Source of the DNA: a bacterium
GTDB taxonomy: Archaea; Thermoplasmatota; Thermoplasmata; Lutacidiplasmatales; UBA184
Direction of reading: 5' to 3'
Assembly (NCBI GenBank): GCA_027309555.1
Contig: DAIDCO010000002.1
Location: 39,179 to 81,723 of the forward strand
Length of the DNA stretch: 42,545 nt
Shown here: one piece after another, positions 2,112 through 23,505 of the stretch
Layout: every line of letters begins with the position of its first letter
Numbering within the stretch: position 1 is the first letter of the stretch
Position numbers and translations under genes: made by a program
The notes under the pieces: model-generated
Databases searched by the model: none
The model's input: only the letters and a program-made list of their open reading frames with translations
Told to the model about the DNA's origin: nothing

Positions 2112-2164
2112 GCTGACGGAGAGTGGACCGGAGGTACTATAGCCGGGCTCGCTTATCGGCGAGC

Positions 2165-3454
2165 ATGGCCGCCGAGAGAGGTCCCGTCTTCCGCAAGTAC
2201 GACCCGAAACAAACTCTCCTCCTTCCTCCCGACCTTAACGAGTGGCTTCCCGAGAATCACCTCGCCCGCATCGTCGCCCAAGTCGTCGACGAACACCTCG
2301 ACCTCCAGCCTCTCCTCGACAGCTACCACAACGAGGCGGGAGGGTTCCCGGCCTTCGACCCCCGCCTCCAGCTCAAGGTCCTCCTCTACGGATACTGCAT
2401 CGGAGTGGCCAGCTCCCGACGCATGGAGAAGGCCACCTACGAGGACGTGGCCACTCGGTGGCTCGCCACCGACCAGCATCCCCACTTCACCACCCTCGCG
2501 CGCTTCCGCCGAAAGAATCTCCCGCTCATGGACGACCTGTTCCACCAGGTCCTCGAGTTGTGCCGAGAGGCGGGGCTCGTCAAGCTCGGTCGGGTGGCGC
2601 TCGATGGAACCAAGATCAAGGCCAGCGCTTCGAAGCACAAGTCGAAAACCTACCAGAAGATCCGGAAGGAGGAGACCGACCTCCGTCGGATCGCCCACGA
2701 CCTTCTCCGCGAGGCCGAACGGGTCGACGAGGAGGAAGACCGACTCTACGGACCCGACAAGAACCCGCTCCTCCACCCCCTCCCTCCCGATTGGAAGGAG
2801 CGGCTGAAGAAGCTCAAGGAGGCCCGCCAGGCCATCGAGGAGCGGGAGCGGAAGAAGGGCAAGAGCGAGCCCGAGGCAAAGACCCAGCACAACTTCACGG
2901 ACCCCGACTCGAGGATCCTGCAGGAGAGCGGGAATAAGGGGGGCTACATTCAAGGATACAACGCCCAGGCGGCGGTGGACGCGAAGAGCCAGGTGATCGT
3001 GATGGCCGCGATCACGCAAGAGAATCCAGACCAAGGGCACCTCCTCCCGATGATCGAGGAGATCGAACGGGAACTCGGGGAGGTTCCCTCGAAGGTCCTC
3101 GTGGACGCGGGATACTTCAGCGAGGTCCAGATCCGTGCAGTGGAAGCGAAGGGGGTCGAGGTGTACTGCCCACCCGAGCCGTGGAGAGTGGCGGAGACGG
3201 CCCCGTGTCCGAGAGGTCGCCCACCTCTCGATGAACGGTTCACCGGGTTCATGCGACGGAAGCTTCGGAGTGTTCGAGGTCGAGCGGAGTATCGGTGGCG
3301 GAAGGTCAGCGTGGAACCGGTGTTCGGTCAGATCAAACAGGGCCGAGGGCTACGCCAGTTCCTCTTGCGGGGGCGTCAGAAGGTCGGGGCGGAGTGGAAG
3401 TTGTGGTGTCTCACCCACAACTTACGGAAACTCCACACCGCTGGGTGGGGCTGA
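2165..3454 (+). CDS. IS1182-family DDE transposase
   Basis: Transposase of 429 residues that cuts and moves the surrounding element. The N-terminal DUF772-type region (FRKYDPKQTLLLPPDLNEWLPENHLARI, then FDPRLQLKVLLYGYCIGVASSRRME) is followed by a DDE catalytic domain. The likely triad is D147 in VALDGTKIKA, D314 in VLVDAGYFSE and E384 in VSVEPVFGQIKQGRGLRQF. Between the first two lies a charged, helix-rich insertion (about residues 160-245, rich in Glu, Lys and Arg), usual for this family. The start at ATG 2165 opens with MAAERGPVFRKYDPKQ as in relatives; GTG 2123 would extend it toward the inverted repeat. The frame is uninterrupted and all three acidic residues are present, so the protein should be functional. 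Confidence 0.92.
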   Translation: MAAERGPVFRKYDPKQTLLLPPDLNEWLPENHLARIVAQVVDEHLDLQPLLDSYHNEAGGFPAFDPRLQLKVLLYGYCIGVASSRRMEKATYEDVATRWLATDQHPHFTTLARFRRKNLPLMDDLFHQVLELCREAGLVKLGRVALDGTKIKASASKHKSKTYQKIRKEETDLRRIAHDLLREAERVDEEEDRLYGPDKNPLLHPLPPDWKERLKKLKEARQAIEERERKKGKSEPEAKTQHNFTDPDSRILQESGNKGGYIQGYNAQAAVDAKSQVIVMAAITQENPDQGHLLPMIEEIERELGEVPSKVLVDAGYFSEVQIRAVEAKGVEVYCPPEPWRVAETAPCPRGRPPLDERFTGFMRRKLRSVRGRAEYRWRKVSVEPVFGQIKQGRGLRQFLLRGRQKVGAEWKLWCLTHNLRKLHTAGWG

Positions 3455-3549: not shown

Positions 3550-4110
3550 CTAGCCGTCGCCCGGACCCGGCTCATCGAGGCGCCACTCGGAAAAGCTCCG
3601 CCCCCCCGACGCGCGGCGCACCTCGCGCATCACTCCCTCCCAAGGGACCCCGCTCGGAAGCGCCCCGGAGTCGAGCGCGTCGAGGAGGCGACGGAAGCGC
3701 GCGCGCAGCTCGGCGTACGGATCCGGACCCCCGGCGACGGCCCAGGTCCTCGCCGGCCGGAGGATCCGGACGATCCCGCCGGAGATGCACCAGACGCCGA
3801 CCGGGCCCGCCCGCGTCCCCTCGGTGCGGTCCACGAGCCGTTCCGCCGCACGGGGGGAAGCGAGCACAACCGCCGTCCAGTCCCCCCAGCCGCGGCGTTT
3901 GAGCGCCTGGACCAGGACGGCCCGCGCGTCCGCCCGTTTCGCTTCCACCAGTCCGACCTCCTGTCCCCGACGGGCGACCAGATCGAAGTAGTCATGGCCG
4001 TCCGGGTCGACCCGCACGCGATACCCTTGCCGCTCGAGGTGTACCGCCGCGATCCGCACGACTTCGGTCTCCGGCAGGGTAGCGCGACGAGCCCGGCCCG
4101 GCCCGCTCAC
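3550..4110 (-). CDS. PD-(D/E)XK nuclease-like protein coupled to mutL
   Basis: A 186-residue protein with the sequence pattern of the restriction-endonuclease fold: a helix with E16 (PETEVVRIAAVHLERQGY), a strand with D43 (DYFDLVAR), then E56 and K58 in GLVEAKRA, matching D-x12-E-x-K. A following helix (RAVLVQALKRRG) and strand (WTAVVLASP) complete the core. The C-terminal third is not recognisable. It begins with GTG overlapping the mutL TGA (GTGA), so it is translationally coupled to mutL and is the third gene of a mutS-mutL-nuclease operon. That placement suggests a mismatch-repair or recombination nuclease, which is inference. Its TAG stop lies in the CTAG flanking the insertion sequence, and the natural C-terminus seems preserved. 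It could instead be an inactive structural relative. Confidence 0.6.
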   Translation of the reverse strand: MSGPGRARRATLPETEVVRIAAVHLERQGYRVRVDPDGHDYFDLVARRGQEVGLVEAKRADARAVLVQALKRRGWGDWTAVVLASPRAAERLVDRTEGTRAGPVGVWCISGGIVRILRPARTWAVAGGPDPYAELRARFRRLLDALDSGALPSGVPWEGVMREVRRASGGRSFSEWRLDEPGPGDG

Positions 4111-5894
4111 GGACCGCTCCGGAGGAACCAGCGGTCGAGGCGCGAGCGAGGGATCCGGAGCAGGATCGGACGGCCGTGGGGACAGGTCGGCGGAGCGCCC
4201 GGCAGCACCGCGAGCGCGTCGAGGACGCGGGCGAACTCCTCCACCCCGACCGTGTCGCCCGCACGGATCGCGGCATGGCAGGCGAGAGTGGCCGCCGTTC
4301 GCTCCTCGAGGCCGTTCGGGACCGTGGGACGTCCGCCCGCGGCGAGCTCGTCGAGCAGCTCGGTCAGCGCTTCGACCCGCGCACGACGTCCCCGGTAGGA
4401 CGGGACCGAGCGCACACGAAATGTCTCGGGTCCGAACGGCTCGACCTCGAAGCCGGCCCGAGCTACCTCCCCCGAGCGGGCCCGGAGCGTCGCGCGCTGG
4501 GCGCCCGTGAGGCGAACGGCCACGGGGTCGACGAGCGCCTGGCGGGCGAGGGTCCCGTCGCGGCGGAGCGCGTCATAGAGGACCCGCTCGCTCGCGGCGT
4601 GCTGGTCGATCAGCACGAGCCCCTCCTCCGTCGCGGCGACCCAGTACAGCTCCTGCACGCAACCGAGGAGGCTCAAGCGGGGGCGAGCCGGACCGGCACG
4701 GACCTCGGTCGCGCCCCGGGACGGATTCCCGAGCCGACGCTGACCGTGCGCGGTCTCGCGCGCGGTCGCCGCGAGGGGGGGAACGAGTGCCGGGAGCCCC
4801 GCCCGCGGCTCGGGCCCGATCTCGCCGGAAGGAAGCGTCGTCGCGTTCGTGGTCGGTCGCCGTGGGCCGACCTCGGCCACCGAAGGGGCGGAGATCAGTC
4901 CCTCGCGGACCCGGATTCGGATCGACTCGGCGACCTCCCTCTCCTTCACGATCCGGACCTCGCGCTTCGTCGGGTGGACGTTGACGTCGAGCCGGTCCCG
5001 CGGAATCTCGAGGTGGAGCGCGCCGACCGGGAACCGGGTGCGGGGTAGATAGTCCCCGAACGCCGCGCGCACCGCCTGTTGGATCGGGCGCGAGGTCACG
5101 GCGCGGCCGTTCACCGCGAGGTAGAGGCTCCGAGCCGTAGACGCCGAGAGCATAGGGCGGCCGAGCACCCCGAAAAGGCGGCCCCCCGAGATCTCTCCGA
5201 GGACCGCGAAGGAGTGATGCCGGAACTCCGGCCCGAGCACCCGGGCCGCTGCGTCAGCGAGCTCGGTCGCGACCGGATAGTTCGCGATCTCCCGTCCCTC
5301 GGACTCGACTCGAAGCGTCACGCGGGGGTGCGCGAGATAGGTCCGCTCCACCGCCCGCACGACCTCGAGCTGCTCGGCCGCCGCGCCCTTGAGGAACTTG
5401 CGGCGCGCCGGAGTGTTGAAGAAGAGCTCCTCGACCTCGACGGTCGTGCCGGCCGCTCGGGGCGAGAGGAACCGGCCCGCGACCGTCCCACCGACCACCG
5501 AGAGCCCTTCCGCAACCTCCCGATCCGGGGTCCGCGAGAGCAGGCGGAACCGCGAGACCGTCGCGATCGCCGCCAGCGCTTCGCCCCGGAAGCCGAGGGT
5601 GTCGATCCCTTCGACCGGCCCGTCGGGAGCGAGCTTGCTCGTCGCGTGCCGTTCGATCGCGAGTTCGAGCTCGGTGGGGGGAATCCCCTCGCCGTCGTCG
5701 GCGATCTCGATCCGGTCGAGCCCGCCGTTCGTCAGACGGACGACCACCGAGGTCGCGCCGGCATCGATCGCGTTCTCGAGCAGTTCCTTGACGACCGACG
5801 CCGGCCGCTCCACCACCTCTCCCGCAGCGATCCGCTCGACGATCTCGGGCGAGAGCCGACGGATCGGCCGGCGGGGTGGGGGTTCCTCCGTCAC
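4107..5894 (-). CDS. mutL: DNA mismatch repair protein MutL
   Basis: Links mismatch recognition by MutS to strand incision. The N-terminal GHKL ATPase is complete: IAAGEVVERPASVVKELLENAIDAGA (residues about 22-47), IADDGEGI, and GFRGEALAAIATVSR. After a proline- and alanine-rich linker (about 340-405) comes the C-terminal dimerisation and endonuclease domain, with DQHA at 430-433 and E436, the ACHAAIRAGD block, and CPHGRP near the C-terminus. These mark the endonuclease-type MutL found where MutH is absent. The last acidic residue of DQHA-x2-E-x4-E is Asp (D441), a conservative change. The length (595) is normal. The GTG start overlaps the mutS TGA as GTGA, and the downstream nuclease gene overlaps its own stop in the same way, so all three are probably translated from one mRNA. 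Confidence 0.95.
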   Translation of the reverse strand: MTEEPPPRRPIRRLSPEIVERIAAGEVVERPASVVKELLENAIDAGATSVVVRLTNGGLDRIEIADDGEGIPPTELELAIERHATSKLAPDGPVEGIDTLGFRGEALAAIATVSRFRLLSRTPDREVAEGLSVVGGTVAGRFLSPRAAGTTVEVEELFFNTPARRKFLKGAAAEQLEVVRAVERTYLAHPRVTLRVESEGREIANYPVATELADAAARVLGPEFRHHSFAVLGEISGGRLFGVLGRPMLSASTARSLYLAVNGRAVTSRPIQQAVRAAFGDYLPRTRFPVGALHLEIPRDRLDVNVHPTKREVRIVKEREVAESIRIRVREGLISAPSVAEVGPRRPTTNATTLPSGEIGPEPRAGLPALVPPLAATARETAHGQRRLGNPSRGATEVRAGPARPRLSLLGCVQELYWVAATEEGLVLIDQHAASERVLYDALRRDGTLARQALVDPVAVRLTGAQRATLRARSGEVARAGFEVEPFGPETFRVRSVPSYRGRRARVEALTELLDELAAGGRPTVPNGLEERTAATLACHAAIRAGDTVGVEEFARVLDALAVLPGAPPTCPHGRPILLRIPRSRLDRWFLRSGP

Positions 5895-8524
5895 GGGTCC
5901 GGCCCCGCATCGGCCGGCCCCCGTGCCGGGGATCTCGGCTCCGCGCGTCGCCTCAGCCCGCGCAGGGTCTCGAGCGCCTCGTCGGCGGAGAGCCGGTCGA
6001 TGTCGAGCGAGCGAAGCTCCTCGCGAACGGGGTCGGGGCCCTCCGACCCGGGGAGCAACACCGCCTGGGTGTACCGGGGAGTTCGCGAGCGGGAGGCCCG
6101 CGCGGGACCGAGCCGGACCCCTTCGGACTCGAGGCGATGGAGGAGCCGCTCCGCCTCGCGGAGCACCTCCTCGGGGAGCCCGGCGAGGCGCGCGACGTGG
6201 ACCCCGTAGCTACGGTCGGTCGCGCCCGGCACGAGCCGGTGGAGGAAGACGATACCGTCGGCCCGCTCAGCGACCGCGAGGTGCGCGTTCTCTGCCGCCG
6301 CGAGACCCCGGACGAGGTCGGTCAACTGATGGTAGTGGGTCGCGACCATGCATCGGGCGCGGAGCGCATCGTGGAGGTGACGGAGCGTCGCCCAGGCGAT
6401 CGCGAGGCCGTCGAAGGTGCTGGTGCCCCGGCCCACCTCATCGAGCAGGACGAGCGAGCGGTCGTCGGCCGAGGCGAGGATCTCGGCGACCTCGGTCATC
6501 TCGACCATGAAGCTCGACTTCCCTCGACCGATCTCGTCGGTGAATCCCATTCGGGTGAATAGCTGAGTGACGAGGCCGACGCGGGCGAAGCGAGCGGGAA
6601 CGAACGCCCCGGCTTGCGCGAGCACGACCAGAAGACCGACCTGACGCATGTACGTTGACTTGCCGGACATGTTCGGTCCCGTCAGGACGAGCAGCCGTCG
6701 ATGATCGCGGTCGAGCTCGGTGTCGTTCGGGACGAACGCCTCACCGAGGAGGCGGTCGAGCACCGGATGACGCGCATCGCGAAGGACGAGCGCGAACGAC
6801 TCGTCGACGGTCGGTCGGAGGTAGCCCCGGGTCTGGGCGAGATGGGCGAACGTGGCGAGGGCGTCGAGCTCGCCGACCGCGCGAGCGACCCGTTGGATCG
6901 CCGGAACGTGGCGCTCGACGGTCGCCAGGAACTCCTCCCAACGCTCCGCCTCCGATTCCCGCGCTCCTTCCCGCGCCTCCAGGATGCGCCGCTCGATCTC
7001 CTCGAGCCGGTCGGAGGTGTACCGTTCGGCCTGGGCAACGGTCTGGCGGCGACGGAACCGTTCGGGCACGCGGGAGAGGTTCGGGCGCGTGACCTCGAGG
7101 TAGTAGCCGAAGACCTGGTTGTAGCCGATCTTGAGCGTCCGGATTCCGGTCGCCTCCTGCTCCGAGCGCTCGAGCTCGGAGAGGTCGCGAAGCGCGCCCT
7201 GCTCGGCCGCTCGCCACCGATCGACGTCGGGGGCGTGCCCGGGACGGAACCGTTCGCTCCCCTCCTCCGAGGACGGTGGTGCATCGGGGAGGGCCGAGTC
7301 AAGGAGCGCGAGCAGCGCCTCGGGGGGACGCAGCTCTTCCGCGAGCCGGCGGAGTCGGGAAGAGGTGGGGCCATCGCCGAGCACGGCCCGCGCCCGCTCT
7401 GTCGCGTGAAGCCCGGAGCGCAGCATTCCGAGCTCGTTCGGCCGAACGCGCCGTCCGGCGACCCGCGAAGCGATGCGGGCGACGTCGGAGAAGCCGCGCA
7501 GGCCGGCCCGCAGCTCGTCGAGGCCGGATCCGCGCGCACTCAGGGCGGCAACGGCGTCCTGACGTTCGACCACCGGAGCGACCTCGGCGAGCGGATTCGA
7601 CAGCCAGAAGGCCAGCGTGCGGCGTCCCGAGGCGGTGACGGTCTCGTCCCAGGTCCCGAGCAGCGTCGGTCCGTTCGGGTCGTCCGGGTTCATCGAGCGC
7701 GCGATCTCGAGATGGCGGAGGGTCTTCGGGTCGAGCACCAGCCGACGACCTCCGTCCGCGCGTTCGACGAGCGTGACGTGCGGAAGGACCCGCGGCTGCG
7801 TCGCCCGCAGGTAGGCGGCCAGGCGACCGTCGGCCTCGCGCACGCCGTCGGCAACCTCCCCCACGCCCGCGACCGACTCGGGGAGTTCGGCCGGCCCGAC
7901 CGGCTCGGGAGCGGCCTCGATCCGGGCCGCGGGGAACTCGCGGCGGAGGGCCGTCGCGAGCGCGCTCGGGCCCCCCGAGGGACAGAGGATCTCGCGCGGC
8001 TGGAACGGCGCGAGAGCCGAAACGAGGCCCTCCGGCCCGCGCCCGTCCGCTCGTCCATGGAACCACTCGCCGGTCGTGATATCGACCGCGGCATAGGCCC
8101 CGAGCCCCTCCGGGGGCGCGACCGCGCTCGCCAGAAAGTTGTGGTCGGGACCGCCCAGGATGCGGTCCTCCATGATCGTGCCCGGAGTGACGACCCGCGT
8201 CACCTCGCGACGGACGAGCCCTTTGGCGAACCGGGCTTCTTCGACCTGGTCGCAGAGGGCGACCTTGTAGCCCTTGCGCACGAGACGGCCGAGGTAGCTC
8301 TCGACCGCGTGGTGCGGCACACCGGCCATGGGAGTCCTCTCCCCCCGGCTGTCCGGGGCTCGGGCGGTGAGGACCACATCGAGCTCCCGGGCGAGCAGAC
8401 GTGCGTCGTCCCCGAATGTCTCGTAGAAGTCTCCGACCCGGAATAGCACGAGGTGGCCCGGGTAGCGGGACTTCACTCCCTCGTACTGTTCGAGGAGTGG
8501 GGTCGTCGGCACGGTCTCCGTCAT
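5891..8524 (-). CDS. mutS: DNA mismatch repair protein MutS
   Basis: Mismatch-recognition ATPase of 877 residues, MutS1 type. The N-terminal domain has the Phe-x-Glu wedge in VGDFYETFGDDA, followed by TPMAGVPHHAVESYLGRLV and the connector, lever and clamp regions. The C-terminal ABC ATPase has Walker A GPNMSGKSTYMRQ and Walker B LVLLDEVGRGTSTFDG. ATG 8524 (MTETVPTTPLLEQY) is chosen because homologues start close to the LLEQY helix and a box A lies 25-30 bases upstream; a longer frame to 8629 would run through tRNA-Ser. The first gene of the mutS-mutL-nuclease operon, probably translated from a leaderless mRNA. MutS1/MutL pairs are patchy in archaea and generally considered acquired from bacteria (family knowledge). 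Confidence 0.96.
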   Translation of the reverse strand: MTETVPTTPLLEQYEGVKSRYPGHLVLFRVGDFYETFGDDARLLARELDVVLTARAPDSRGERTPMAGVPHHAVESYLGRLVRKGYKVALCDQVEEARFAKGLVRREVTRVVTPGTIMEDRILGGPDHNFLASAVAPPEGLGAYAAVDITTGEWFHGRADGRGPEGLVSALAPFQPREILCPSGGPSALATALRREFPAARIEAAPEPVGPAELPESVAGVGEVADGVREADGRLAAYLRATQPRVLPHVTLVERADGGRRLVLDPKTLRHLEIARSMNPDDPNGPTLLGTWDETVTASGRRTLAFWLSNPLAEVAPVVERQDAVAALSARGSGLDELRAGLRGFSDVARIASRVAGRRVRPNELGMLRSGLHATERARAVLGDGPTSSRLRRLAEELRPPEALLALLDSALPDAPPSSEEGSERFRPGHAPDVDRWRAAEQGALRDLSELERSEQEATGIRTLKIGYNQVFGYYLEVTRPNLSRVPERFRRRQTVAQAERYTSDRLEEIERRILEAREGARESEAERWEEFLATVERHVPAIQRVARAVGELDALATFAHLAQTRGYLRPTVDESFALVLRDARHPVLDRLLGEAFVPNDTELDRDHRRLLVLTGPNMSGKSTYMRQVGLLVVLAQAGAFVPARFARVGLVTQLFTRMGFTDEIGRGKSSFMVEMTEVAEILASADDRSLVLLDEVGRGTSTFDGLAIAWATLRHLHDALRARCMVATHYHQLTDLVRGLAAAENAHLAVAERADGIVFLHRLVPGATDRSYGVHVARLAGLPEEVLREAERLLHRLESEGVRLGPARASRSRTPRYTQAVLLPGSEGPDPVREELRSLDIDRLSADEALETLRGLRRRAEPRSPARGPADAGPDP

Positions 8525-8548
8525 GGGCCGCTCGGTTGACCGGGGCCG

Positions 8549-8558
8549 ACCTATAAGG
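8549..8558 (-). promoter_or_regulatory. Box A of the mutS operon
   Basis: Reading on the minus strand, CCTTATAGG lies about 29 bases before ATG 8524, the right distance for a leaderless transcript. Confidence 0.55.
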
Positions 8559-8589
8559 CTCCTCGGGCGGTCGGTGCCCCGGCGAGAGC

Positions 8590-8672
8590 GCTGAGGGGGA
8601 GATTCGAACTCCCGTGGCGAGATCGCCACCAGCTTTCAAGGCTGGCGCCTTGCCGGGCTAGGCTACCTCAGC
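8590..8672 (-). tRNA. tRNA-Ser(TGA)
   Basis: The acceptor GCTGAGG pairs with CCTCAGC. The anticodon stem CCAGC/GCTGG encloses loop CTTGAAA with anticodon TGA. The long variable arm TGGCGATCTCGCCA marks a class II tRNA, and the T-arm is GGGAG-TTCGAAT-CTCCC. The discriminator base is G at 8589, as usual for archaeal Ser tRNAs. CCA is not encoded. No intron is seen. Confidence 0.97.
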
Positions 8673-8737: not shown

Positions 8738-8839
8738 GCAGGTGCCGGGAGATTCGCGGGGGACCCCGAAGGGTCCCGCCGATTCGAACCCGGGTGGTCA
8801 GCTTGGAGGGCTGACATCCTACCACTAGATTACACCTGC
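8738..8839 (-). tRNA. tRNA-Gly(TCC) with a T-loop intron
   Basis: Acceptor GCAGGTG pairs perfectly with CACCTGC. The D-arm TAGTGGTAGGA is typical of glycine tRNAs. Anticodon stem TCAGC/GCTGA encloses the loop CCTCCAA, giving anticodon TCC; base 33 is C, not the nearly universal U. The T-stem is CCGGG/CCCGG, but 32 extra bases split the T-loop. With them removed the arm reads CCGGG-TTCGAAT-CCCGG, a perfect T-arm. The discriminator is A (8737), and CCA is not encoded. It lies just downstream of, and may share a promoter region with, the 3' end of the Cgi121 gene. Ordinary tRNA gene finders set for anticodon-loop introns could miss or misfold it. Confidence 0.93.
8751..8782 (-). other. Non-canonical archaeal tRNA intron (position 59/60)
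   Basis: A 32-nt intron. In the precursor, exon bases T54-G57 (TTCG) pair with CGAA near the intron 3' end, forming a 4-bp helix. This helix is flanked by 3-nt bulges, AAT on the 5' side and TCT on the 3' side. That is the canonical bulge-helix-bulge recognised by the archaeal splicing endonuclease. Cleavage after the second base of each bulge gives a join of TTCGAA to TCCCGG, the exact mature T-arm. The intron interior folds as a ten-pair stem with one bulged C and a TTCG tetraloop. Shifting the borders by one or two bases gives the same mature RNA, but only this placement fits the bulge rule. Confidence 0.9.
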
Positions 8840-8876: not shown

Positions 8877-8885
8877 GGTTAATGC
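8877..8885 (-). promoter_or_regulatory. Box A of tRNA-Gly
   Basis: GCATTAACC on the minus strand lies about 40 bases before the tRNA 5' end and overlaps the stop codon of the Cgi121 gene. Confidence 0.45.
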
Positions 8886-9442
8886 TTTTCGACCGGCGGG
8901 TGGCCGGCGGGAGACGACAGGTCGACCAGCGCCACGCGCTCGAGCACCAGGCCCTCCCATTGAGCCGGGCTGACCGCGGCCCGTTCGGCCGCGGAAATGC
9001 CGAGACGTTCCAGGGTCGCGAGCTCCACCGCGCGCGGGTAGGCGGAGGGGTCCTCGACCAGCGAGAACCGGGCCAGGAGCGCCGACGGCTCGAGCGGCCG
9101 CTCTGCGACCAGCACGAACTGCTCGGTCGCGTCCGACACGCCGGCTTTCTCGAGTGCTCGGGGCAATTGGTCGTCCCCGGCGACGTAGAGCGCTAGCTCG
9201 GCGCCCCGTTCCCGCAGGCGGGATTCGCCCCGGTGCCGCGCGCGGCCGAGGTGCGCCCACGCGGAGAACAGATGGCGCTCGCCGGCGATCGCACGGGCAT
9301 CGAATACCGCGACCAGCGCGGGGGACTCCTTGGCGAGCTCCCGCAAGGTCCGTACAATGGTCGCCGTAGTCGGGTGGCCCGGCGCCGACCGTCGTGCCCC
9401 GAGCGCCCGGAGGCCGCGCTCTTCGGGAGGTGGGAGAGGCAC
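8879..9442 (-). CDS. cgi121: KEOPS complex subunit Cgi121
   Basis: A 187-residue homologue of Cgi121/TPRKB, the KEOPS subunit that binds the tRNA 3' end and helps make N6-threonylcarbamoyladenosine at A37 of ANN-decoding tRNAs. Support: the central block ALVAVFDARAIAGERHLFSAWAHLGRA, matching the family's opening strand and helix, and GDDQLPRALEKAGVSDATEQFVLVA, matching its conserved helix-Gly-strand region. The length fits the family. I chose GTG 9442 because a perfect GGAGGT lies six bases upstream; the open frame continues into the preceding gene as non-coding sequence. It follows the MBL-hydrolase gene by 11 bases and is probably co-transcribed. Other KEOPS genes are not in the window. The call depends on motif memory, so a profile search would settle it. 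Confidence 0.72.
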   Translation of the reverse strand: MPLPPPEERGLRALGARRSAPGHPTTATIVRTLRELAKESPALVAVFDARAIAGERHLFSAWAHLGRARHRGESRLRERGAELALYVAGDDQLPRALEKAGVSDATEQFVLVAERPLEPSALLARFSLVEDPSAYPRAVELATLERLGISAAERAAVSPAQWEGLVLERVALVDLSSPAGHPPVEKH

Positions 9443-9453
9443 GGGCGACCTCC

Positions 9454-10065
9454 TCACTCGGCGAGGAAGCGGAGGAACTCCTCGCGCGTCCGGGGCTTTA
9501 GCGTATAGTTCTCCCGACGCTCCCGACCGATGGTGGAGGTGGGAGTCGACCCGTAGTCGTGGCCCGGGAGGACGACGAGCGCGTCCTCCAGAGCGAGGAG
9601 ACGGCGGTGGAGGCTCTCGTACATCTCGGACGGGTCTCCCCCGGGGAGGTCCGTTCGGCCGCATTCTCCGACGAACAGGGTGTCCCCCGTCGCGAGATGA
9701 CCTTCGAAGAGGTAGAGGACGCTGTCCTTCGTGTGCCCGGGCGTGTGCAGCACGCGGAACCGGAGCCGGCCCGAGTCGAACCCGTCCCCATCCTCGACCG
9801 AAAGATCCTGGTGGAGCGGGGCCGAGCGGTGCGCGACGACCTTGGCCCCCGTGCGGTCGCGGACGTCTTGATTGCCGGCCACGTGATCCGGGTGGCTGTG
9901 GGTGTTCAGGATGTACCGCACCTTCACCCGTCGGCGATCGATCCCCTCGAGGACGGGCTCGATGCCGAAGGACGGGTCGATGACGACACCCTCGCCGCCC
10001 TCCTCGTCCGCCACGAGGTAGGTGAAGTTGAGGTACGGGCCGACACGAAACTGGTCGAGCAGCAC
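9454..10065 (-). CDS. MBL-fold hydrolase, glyoxalase II / persulfide dioxygenase-like
   Basis: A 203-residue metallo-beta-lactamase-fold protein. The metal ligands are clear: THSHPDH (residues about 55-61), the His in LHTPGHT, Asp in ATGDTLFVGECGRTD, and the closing His in LPGHDYGS. The short length and the GRTDLPGGDPSEMYESLHRRL stretch resemble the persulfide dioxygenase (ETHE1-like) and stand-alone rhodanese-linked branch more than true glyoxalase II, which has a C-terminal glutathione-binding domain not seen here. The reaction is therefore either thioester hydrolysis or persulfide oxidation, undecided. The start is GTG 10065, with box A (GTCAAATAC) about 24 bases upstream, so the mRNA is probably leaderless and continues into the Cgi121 gene. 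Confidence 0.85.
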   Translation of the reverse strand: MLLDQFRVGPYLNFTYLVADEEGGEGVVIDPSFGIEPVLEGIDRRRVKVRYILNTHSHPDHVAGNQDVRDRTGAKVVAHRSAPLHQDLSVEDGDGFDSGRLRFRVLHTPGHTKDSVLYLFEGHLATGDTLFVGECGRTDLPGGDPSEMYESLHRRLLALEDALVVLPGHDYGSTPTSTIGRERRENYTLKPRTREEFLRFLAE

Positions 10066-22626: not shown

Positions 22627-23505
22627 CTAACCGCGCCCGCTCTTCTGGAGCTCCAGGAGATCCTCGGTCGAGACCTTCTCGCCCTTCTTCAGGCGGGCGA
22701 GGAAGTCCTCCTCGCGGGGGGGCTCGACCTCGCCCCAGGAGGGCGGGGCTCGACCGCCTCGCGCAGCGTAGAGGAGCTTCTCGATGTCCCGGACCTCCTC
22801 GATCGAAGCGATGTGTTGCCGGTGGGCCTCGTCGGCCTGCGCCTTGACCTCGAGGAGCTTCGCCTGCACTTCGTCGGCCTGACGGCGTAGCTCGTCGACC
22901 GATTCGTAGAGAGCGACCATCGCCTCGTGTTCGCGCTGGGCCTCCTCGGCGGAGTGACCGACCGCGGCGTGATGCTTCTCCGCCTCGTCTCGGGCCGTGG
23001 CGAACGCGGTCATCGTCTGCTCGACCTCGGGGTCCTGGCGCAGTTGCTCGTCCTGCTCCCGAATCGCCGCCTCGAGCCGCTTCATCTCTTCGATGAGGCG
23101 CTTCTCCTGATCGCCCGTAAGGGCGGTCGTCATATGGCGGAACTCGAGCTCCTTGAGCTCCTTGCGGAGCCGCCAGGTCGGGACCGCTCCCGGCCGAGGC
23201 GTGCGGGCACGCTTGAGCTCTTGGACCTTGTCGCCCAGCTCCTGAAGCTTGCCGTTCCACTCCTCGCGCAGCCGCTTCTCCTCGCGGACCTGGCTGTTCA
23301 GCGCGTCGCGCTGTCGGCGGTGCTCCTGGGCCTCGGCGCTCTTGTCGTGGAGCTCGTCGAGGATGCGGGAGCGCTGTTCGGCCGTGGCCCGGGCCTCGGC
23401 GTTCAGCCGGTCGCGGCGAGCTCGCGCCTCGTCGGCGCGCCCGTTCGACTCCGCGCGTCGCTTTTCAAGTTCCTCGGTCGCGTCGCTCAAGCGGTCCCCG
23501 CCCAA
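22627..23505 (-). CDS. Archaeal long coiled-coil protein
   Basis: A 292-residue protein that is almost entirely charged heptad-like helix (residues about 5-245; for example ELEKRRAESNGRADEARARRD, QREHEAMVALYESVDELRRQADEVQAKL), broken by a Pro-rich hinge at about 100-110 (ARTPRPGAVPTW). After the hinge, RLRKELKELEFRHMTTALTGDQEKRLIEEMKRLEAAIREQ is typical of a conserved archaeal coiled-coil family of unknown function. The C-terminus FLARLKKGEKVSTEDLLELQKSG looks like a short conserved module. SMC- or Rad50-like heads are absent. The start is TTG 23505 or TTG 23490, undecided. It diverges from herA, sharing the intergenic region; a structural or partner role for DNA proteins is speculative. Confidence 0.75.
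   Translation of the reverse strand: MGGDRLSDATEELEKRRAESNGRADEARARRDRLNAEARATAEQRSRILDELHDKSAEAQEHRRQRDALNSQVREEKRLREEWNGKLQELGDKVQELKRARTPRPGAVPTWRLRKELKELEFRHMTTALTGDQEKRLIEEMKRLEAAIREQDEQLRQDPEVEQTMTAFATARDEAEKHHAAVGHSAEEAQREHEAMVALYESVDELRRQADEVQAKLLEVKAQADEAHRQHIASIEEVRDIEKLLYAARGGRAPPSWGEVEPPREEDFLARLKKGEKVSTEDLLELQKSGRG

Follow-up and report, generated by a model that had tools for sequence, protein, structure and literature searches.

Does the 32-nt insertion that splits the T-loop of a tRNA-Gly(TCC) gene in the window (the whole 42,545-nt stretch of DNA analysed here) represent a genuine tRNA intron, and if so, which endonuclease would remove it and why has it been kept? The question arises from the setting. 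The host is an uncultured, probably acid-soil archaeon of the Thermoplasmatota, most likely from Ca. Lutacidiplasmatales, and euryarchaea are described as having a single tRNA intron at the canonical position in the anticodon loop (PMC4090602; this and all other PMC articles are cited from excerpts). Exceptions to this rule have been recorded (PMC4033280, PMC3218864, PMC8450103). The study that proposed Ca. Lutacidiplasmatales ran tRNAscan-SE, and the word "intron" is absent from its main text (PMC9287336). Among the literature titles searched, we found no report of T-loop introns in Thermoplasmatota; Sugahara 2008, Marck and Grosjean 2003, Tocchini-Valentini 2011 and GtRNAdb lay outside this scope, and an earlier mention is possible.

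The gene lies where an earlier note on this DNA had placed it, on the minus strand (Table 1). Its 102-nt precursor consists of a 57-nt exon, the 32-nt intron and a 13-nt exon. ARAGORN found no tRNA in the unspliced gene and called a 70-nt tRNA-Gly(tcc) once the 32 nt were removed, restoring a normal tRNA. The MFE structure of the whole precursor (z = -4.06; 0 of 200 shuffles folded equally well) contains four of the five T-stem pairs, the 4-bp TTCG/CGAA core with its AAT and TCT bulges, and an intron hairpin. When the T-arm was folded alone, the T-stem and the core were both complete, with five and four pairs respectively, nine in total. The gene thus carries a 3-nt bulge, a 4-bp helix and a 3-nt bulge across its splice sites, the bulge-helix-bulge (BHB) geometry that the note had read from the letters. 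As far as the sequence itself goes, junctions at 59/60, 60/61 and 61/62 all yield an identical tRNA; we place the junction at 59/60 because the BHB geometry selects it. The cut sites proposed in the note, after the second base of each bulge, hold as well. The unusual C at position 33 is found in 43 of 68 Gly(TCC) rows of the family and in more than one genus; the other 25 rows have T, as does the second genome of the genus (G018, see below).

Table 1. Coordinates of the tRNA-Gly(TCC) gene, its intron and splicing motif in the window.
Feature	Position	Strand	Basis
tRNA-Gly(TCC) precursor gene	8738..8839	-	sequence; ARAGORN on spliced form; covariance model R1
5' exon, 57 nt, tRNA positions 1-59	8783..8839	-	ARAGORN; BHB geometry
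32-nt intron at 59/60	8751..8782	-	ARAGORN; core-pair comparison; precursor fold
3' exon, 13 nt, tRNA positions 60-72	8738..8750	-	ARAGORN
BHB 4-bp core, exon side TTCG (54-57)	8785..8788	-	core-pair comparison; precursor fold
BHB core, intron side CGAA	8753..8756	-	core-pair comparison; precursor fold
5' splice-site bulge AA/T (slash, cut)	8782..8784	-	core-pair comparison; precursor fold
3' splice-site bulge TC/T (slash, cut)	8750..8752	-	core-pair comparison; precursor fold
Anticodon TCC	8805..8807	-	ARAGORN on spliced form
tRNA position 33, C instead of the usual U	8808..8808	-	sequence
Neighbouring tRNA-Ser(TGA), intron-free (context only)	8588..8672	-	ARAGORN; Rfam

The gene adjoining tRNA-Gly (8879-9664) has a weak, sub-threshold match to CGI-121, which we take to be a KEOPS subunit. 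Adjacent MutS and MutL genes (4107-8629) lie beyond tRNA-Ser and tRNA-Gly on the same strand as these two, and a DDE transposase gene (PF01609, PF05598) occupies 2123-3454. A search of a phage collection with the window region gave no match.

The intron is widespread among relatives, a check that the earlier note had suggested. Using zero-mismatch patterns for Gly(TCC) in 103 genomes of the family, we found 72 with the intron-bearing form, none with the intron-free form and 31 with neither; the last may be incomplete or diverged. These pattern counts argue independently for the window intron. In an alignment of 68 of the 75 listed Gly rows, which are not independent of one another, the intron is 28 to 34 nt long, and its core is well preserved: pair 56 is C-G and pair 55 standard in 68 of 68 rows, pair 54 is standard in 64, while G-C makes up pair 57 in 61 rows and A.G in the other seven. 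In 45 rows, the intron helix begins with three or more consecutive pairs right beside the core. A BHB, defined as a full T-stem with at least three core pairs, appeared in the T-arm MFE structure of 62% of the 68 sequences compared with 1% of 1360 shuffled-intron copies; the MFE structures of the remaining 38% lacked it.

Within its own genome, the window gene has company. The draft (G000) is 90% complete, and the Rfam tRNA model gave 40 listed matches to it, several of the weak ones ending at the T-arm. Reading of the weak-match regions, followed by a stem-pairing script, revealed introns at 59/60 in 14 tRNAs: Gly(TCC), Asn(GTT), Ser(CGA), Ser(GCT), Ser(GGA), Arg(TCT), Arg(TCG), Glu(CTC), Ala(GGC), Gln(CTG), Leu(TAG), Lys(TTT), Asp(GTC) and His(GTG). 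Coding stretches were also picked up by chance (e.g. in L003, L010, L016 and the window) and were discarded by eye. In G018, a second member of the genus, T-loop introns interrupt the identical 14 tRNAs. Eight class-I genes of G000 share the same architecture; in their alignment, with the structure drawn by hand, 96% of cells are standard pairs versus 67.9% in shuffles. The covariance model built from these eight genes (R1) scores the window gene at E 3.9e-18, a value that is not independent, as the gene is one of the training sequences. With the Rfam model, the window gene reaches 24.3 bits, below the cut-off of 29.

Further interruptions occur in G000. Lys(TTT) and Leu(TAG) carry an additional D-loop insertion, and D-loop insertions were also read by eye in Arg(GCG) (L034) and in a CAT tRNA with initiator-like ends (L033), while Met, Tyr, Trp and Leu(TAA) have anticodon-loop introns. 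A hand count of the 90% complete draft gave 42 tRNA genes, 20 of them interrupted, and 22 introns. Three ARAGORN calls were treated as false: a tRNA-Leu at window positions 23369-23464, which Rfam does not report at the gathering score, another tRNA-Leu in L412, unsupported by further tRNA searches, and a tRNA-Pro in L023, apart from which no tRNA-Pro was recognised in the draft.

The splicing motifs of the 28 introns in G000 and G018 (14 each) vary in quality. A standard partner is present for U54 in 28, for U55 in 27 and for C56 in 27, and the fourth core pair is non-standard in 16 (A.G in 14, another mismatch in two). In 16 introns, the intron helix starts with three or more consecutive pairs abutting the core, and in 12 it does not; in Asn(GTT) of G000 only two of the four core pairs form. 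Many of the T-loop introns in the two genomes appear to be relaxed BHB motifs.

The pattern extends across the phylum. A T-loop-intron pattern beside GGG T-stems was found in 87 of 389 Thermoplasmatota genomes, compared with 11 for the reversed pattern (hand count from a table), in a search that misses non-GGG T-stems and also catches coding sequence. When 60 regions were picked by eye, 55 parsed as T-loop-introned tRNAs; they come from 15 families, including that of the window and two outside its class (f27 and f50). In L262, L300, L304, L320 and L321 no T-loop-introned tRNA was parsed. For 39 of the 55, ARAGORN assigned an identity to the spliced form, in some cases an odd one; each of the remaining 16 has a long 5' exon of at least 83 nt, a length that a further insertion would produce. 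The highest-scoring loci set minimum numbers of T-loop introns per genome: at least two in G029, at least three in G019 and in G023 and at least eight in G020, and, among members of the window's family, at least eight in G069 and at least 11 in G319. In G020, which belongs to the same order, eight tRNAs (in L100, L325, L329, L334, L338, L342 and L346) have a T-loop intron, which in seven of them is just 13-14 nt long; the 5' exon is long in all eight, as expected if a second intron were present. Lys(TTT) genes with insertions in both D-loop and T-loop were seen by eye in several families (L276, L281, L286, L288, L290, L297, L298, L310, L319). The T-loop-intron state looks old in the phylum; among the genomes examined, the window's family and G020 seem to show its greatest expansion. 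The euryarchaeal setting is unexpected, as the earlier note held, but the window intron is one of 14 in its genome and the pattern is wide across the phylum.

Which enzyme could process such introns? The note had suggested a heteromeric or epsilon-type endonuclease. The sole PF01974 frame found in the G000 draft encodes two repeats in one chain, and neither a separate beta subunit nor a three-unit chain, which would indicate an (alpha beta)2 or epsilon2 enzyme, was found there; both types were rejected on this basis. Across 10 aligned proteins of the class, the second repeat shows no variation at the residues matching the catalytic Tyr, His and Lys; we assume the catalytic roles assigned to these residues in PF01974 proteins. 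The alpha'2 endonucleases of known structure (1r0v, 2gjw, 2ohc) have the same two repeats per chain, with the catalytic residues in the second, and the G000 endonuclease is predicted from its chain architecture to be of the alpha'2 type. Endonucleases of broad specificity have an additional loop, crenarchaea- or ARMAN-specific, close to the active site. The catalytic half of the G000 enzyme aligns with 1a79 (M. jannaschii), presumed to lack this loop, over 168 residues to 168 with only small gaps, and no crenarchaea-type extra loop is apparent at its presumed place. Ferroplasma likewise belongs to the Thermoplasmatota.

The alpha'2 enzyme of Archaeoglobus is reported to be limited to the canonical BHB (PMC12397907), the alpha'2 type in general is described as restricted likewise (PMC4033280), and alpha'2 enzymes have been linked to single introns at 37/38 (PMC4090602). 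In contrast to the reported Archaeoglobus specificity, the presumed substrates of the window lineage are often relaxed. The homodimeric Ferroplasma enzyme cuts minimal BHB substrates without the tRNA body (PMC8707768), so the position of an intron within the tRNA need not matter. Either the enzyme tolerates a non-standard fourth pair or a missing abutting helix, or such features matter less than the bulges.

Starting from the observed anatomy and fold of the gene, its conservation, the 14-tRNA set in two genomes and the enzyme type, we conclude with high confidence that the insertion is best explained as a genuine, removable archaeal tRNA intron with a portable T-loop BHB, presumably cleaved by an alpha'2 endonuclease, with ligation of the exons to follow. 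The intron of the window gene truly belongs to a kind already described. In the proposed mechanism, the T-stem would serve as the outer helix of the BHB, and its core would arise from pairing of the near-universal T-loop bases U54 U55 C56 R57 with a tetramer in the intron (CGAA in the window gene). The genome's alpha'2 endonuclease would cut after the second base of each bulge, and the joining ligase, RtcB, would connect 59 to 60. Since nearly all tRNAs have the bases that supply the exon side of the core, an intron with a matching tetramer would be portable, fitting any tRNA with the exons unchanged, and this would explain 14 different tRNAs introned at one site. Spread may have occurred by copying between tRNAs. 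As a possible benefit, the intron might break the tRNA attachment site used by integrative elements.

Copying was tested by comparing the introns and found unsupported: those of different tRNAs in G000 have an identity of 0.559, versus 0.505 when shuffled. With similarity this low, even between orthologous introns of G000 and G018 (mean identity 0.633; non-orthologous 0.569), any copying would be old. We lean slightly towards the view that the introns are neutral passengers, which spread once and are rarely lost because they are harmless, without conferring a benefit. The small difference between orthologous and non-orthologous introns fits free sequence drift, with position and most of the motif kept and the sequence not. 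Neutrality accounts less well for the scarcity of loss, given that no intron-free Gly(TCC) was detected by pattern in 103 genomes and that the same 14 tRNAs are interrupted in two, and it would not lead one to expect the distribution of integrases.

tRNA genes are frequent landing sites of integrative elements. Randau and Soll proposed that introns block integration into tRNA genes (cited in PMC3218864 and PMC3293823), although PMC3293823 states that there is no direct evidence for a relationship between introns and integration. That the introns discussed here protect tRNA genes in this way, by disrupting the attachment site that lies in the T-arm and 3' end, is a tentative reading. Integrases (PF00589) match in 70 of the 78 genomes of the genus, including a high-scoring group taken as the host recombinase XerA. 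We analysed 64 loci, comprising 60 regions below the XerA-like group and four G000 matches. Model R1, which favours T-loop-introned genes, identified 20 tRNAs near the integrases, and ARAGORN one more (Trp, L413). None of these 21 has a T-loop intron, although 14 of the approximately 42 tRNA genes in G000 do. The integrase lies 3' of the tRNA in 16 of 21 cases, and G000 itself provides an integrase gene on the 3' side of an intron-free tRNA-Thr(CGT) (contig C11; L379 / L009).

The integrase-near tRNAs represent 13 species and one odd gene. The chance of 13 species hit at random missing all 14 of the set, which was checked in two genomes, is 0.001 to 0.003, but rises to about 0.05 (hand arithmetic) when the comparison is restricted to Gln, Ala, Gly, Arg, Lys and Leu, the six isoacceptor families in which the integrase sits at a member lacking a T-loop intron. 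An intron in the anticodon loop leaves the T-arm intact, and integrases do occur beside tRNAs of this kind (Met, L448; Trp, L413). On the other hand, the loci are few and related, the integrases may hold older preferences for certain tRNAs in a comparison made within the genus and without an outgroup, in five of 21 cases the integrase lies 5' of the tRNA, and one of the 21 is 1.9 kb away. The odd gene (L426:1507-1579) is tRNA-like and called Ser(GCT) by ARAGORN; it bears the anticodon of a species among the 14, without the long variable arm. We regard integrase avoidance as a lead, not proof. It is conceivable, if doubtful, that T-loop introns act as heritable shields that confine the elements of this genus to tRNAs with an unbroken T-arm, and that the loop-less homodimeric endonuclease evolved a tolerance of relaxed BHB cores.

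It is improbable that the introns give rise to small functional RNAs or control the supply of tRNA via the order of splicing and end-trimming. A T-loop intron would have to block T-loop folding until its removal, which could allow regulation, but little intron sequence is conserved beyond the splice sites, and Rfam at the gathering score reports tRNA-Ser as the sole match in the window. Largely refuted, and very unlikely, is that a short insertion has turned the gene into a defunct copy, with Gly(TCC) supplied by another gene: such a copy could be missing from a 90% complete draft, but no second Gly(TCC), the alternative considered in the earlier note, is among the tRNAs found in G000, and the 72 intron-bearing against 0 intron-free genomes of the family go with conserved exons. 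A self-splicing intron was rejected, 32 nt being too short.

Parts of this arrangement are known from other archaea. The non-canonical introns of Thermoproteales and other Crenarchaeota likewise use the BHB motif and interrupt many tRNAs per genome, with 59/60 among the listed sites (PMC4090602); those Crenarchaeota, however, have mostly (alpha beta)2 enzymes (PMC4033280) and many intron positions, whereas the window lineage combines an apparent alpha'2 enzyme with one favoured site. Atabeyarchaeia and Freyarchaeia, also uncultured soil archaea, have introns in 92-95% of their tRNA genes, often non-canonical and multiple, so that intron richness is not confined to Crenarchaeota (PMC11291895); unlike the window lineage, they are Asgard archaea. 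Euryarchaeal hosts of non-canonical or multiple introns include Methanopyrus and Methanothermobacter (PMC4033280) and three thermophilic methanogens (PMC3218864), and tRNAscan-SE 2.0 was trained partly on euryarchaeal non-canonical introns (PMC8450103). While the named euryarchaea are thermophilic methanogens, the introns described here occur in many Thermoplasmatota families, with up to 14 T-loop introns per genome. In Caldiarchaeum, introns are found in the D-, V- and T-arms, and a link to integration was proposed there too (PMC3293823), but it belongs to another phylum and a single tRNA-Thr event was followed, compared with a family-wide pattern and an integrase count here.

What is unexpected is the setting: a euryarchaeal phylum, an enzyme of apparent alpha'2 type, one favoured site, many relaxed motifs and a 14-tRNA set common to two species. 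A phylum that combines alpha'2 enzymes with a large number of fixed T-loop introns departs from the rule and provides fresh substrates to probe the limits of the enzyme. T-loop-introned genes can drop below the Rfam cut-off, so the tRNA sets of such genomes may look incomplete. Finally, a genus in which 14 interrupted tRNAs stand beside uninterrupted isoacceptors, with integrases in most genomes, makes the question of integration countable.
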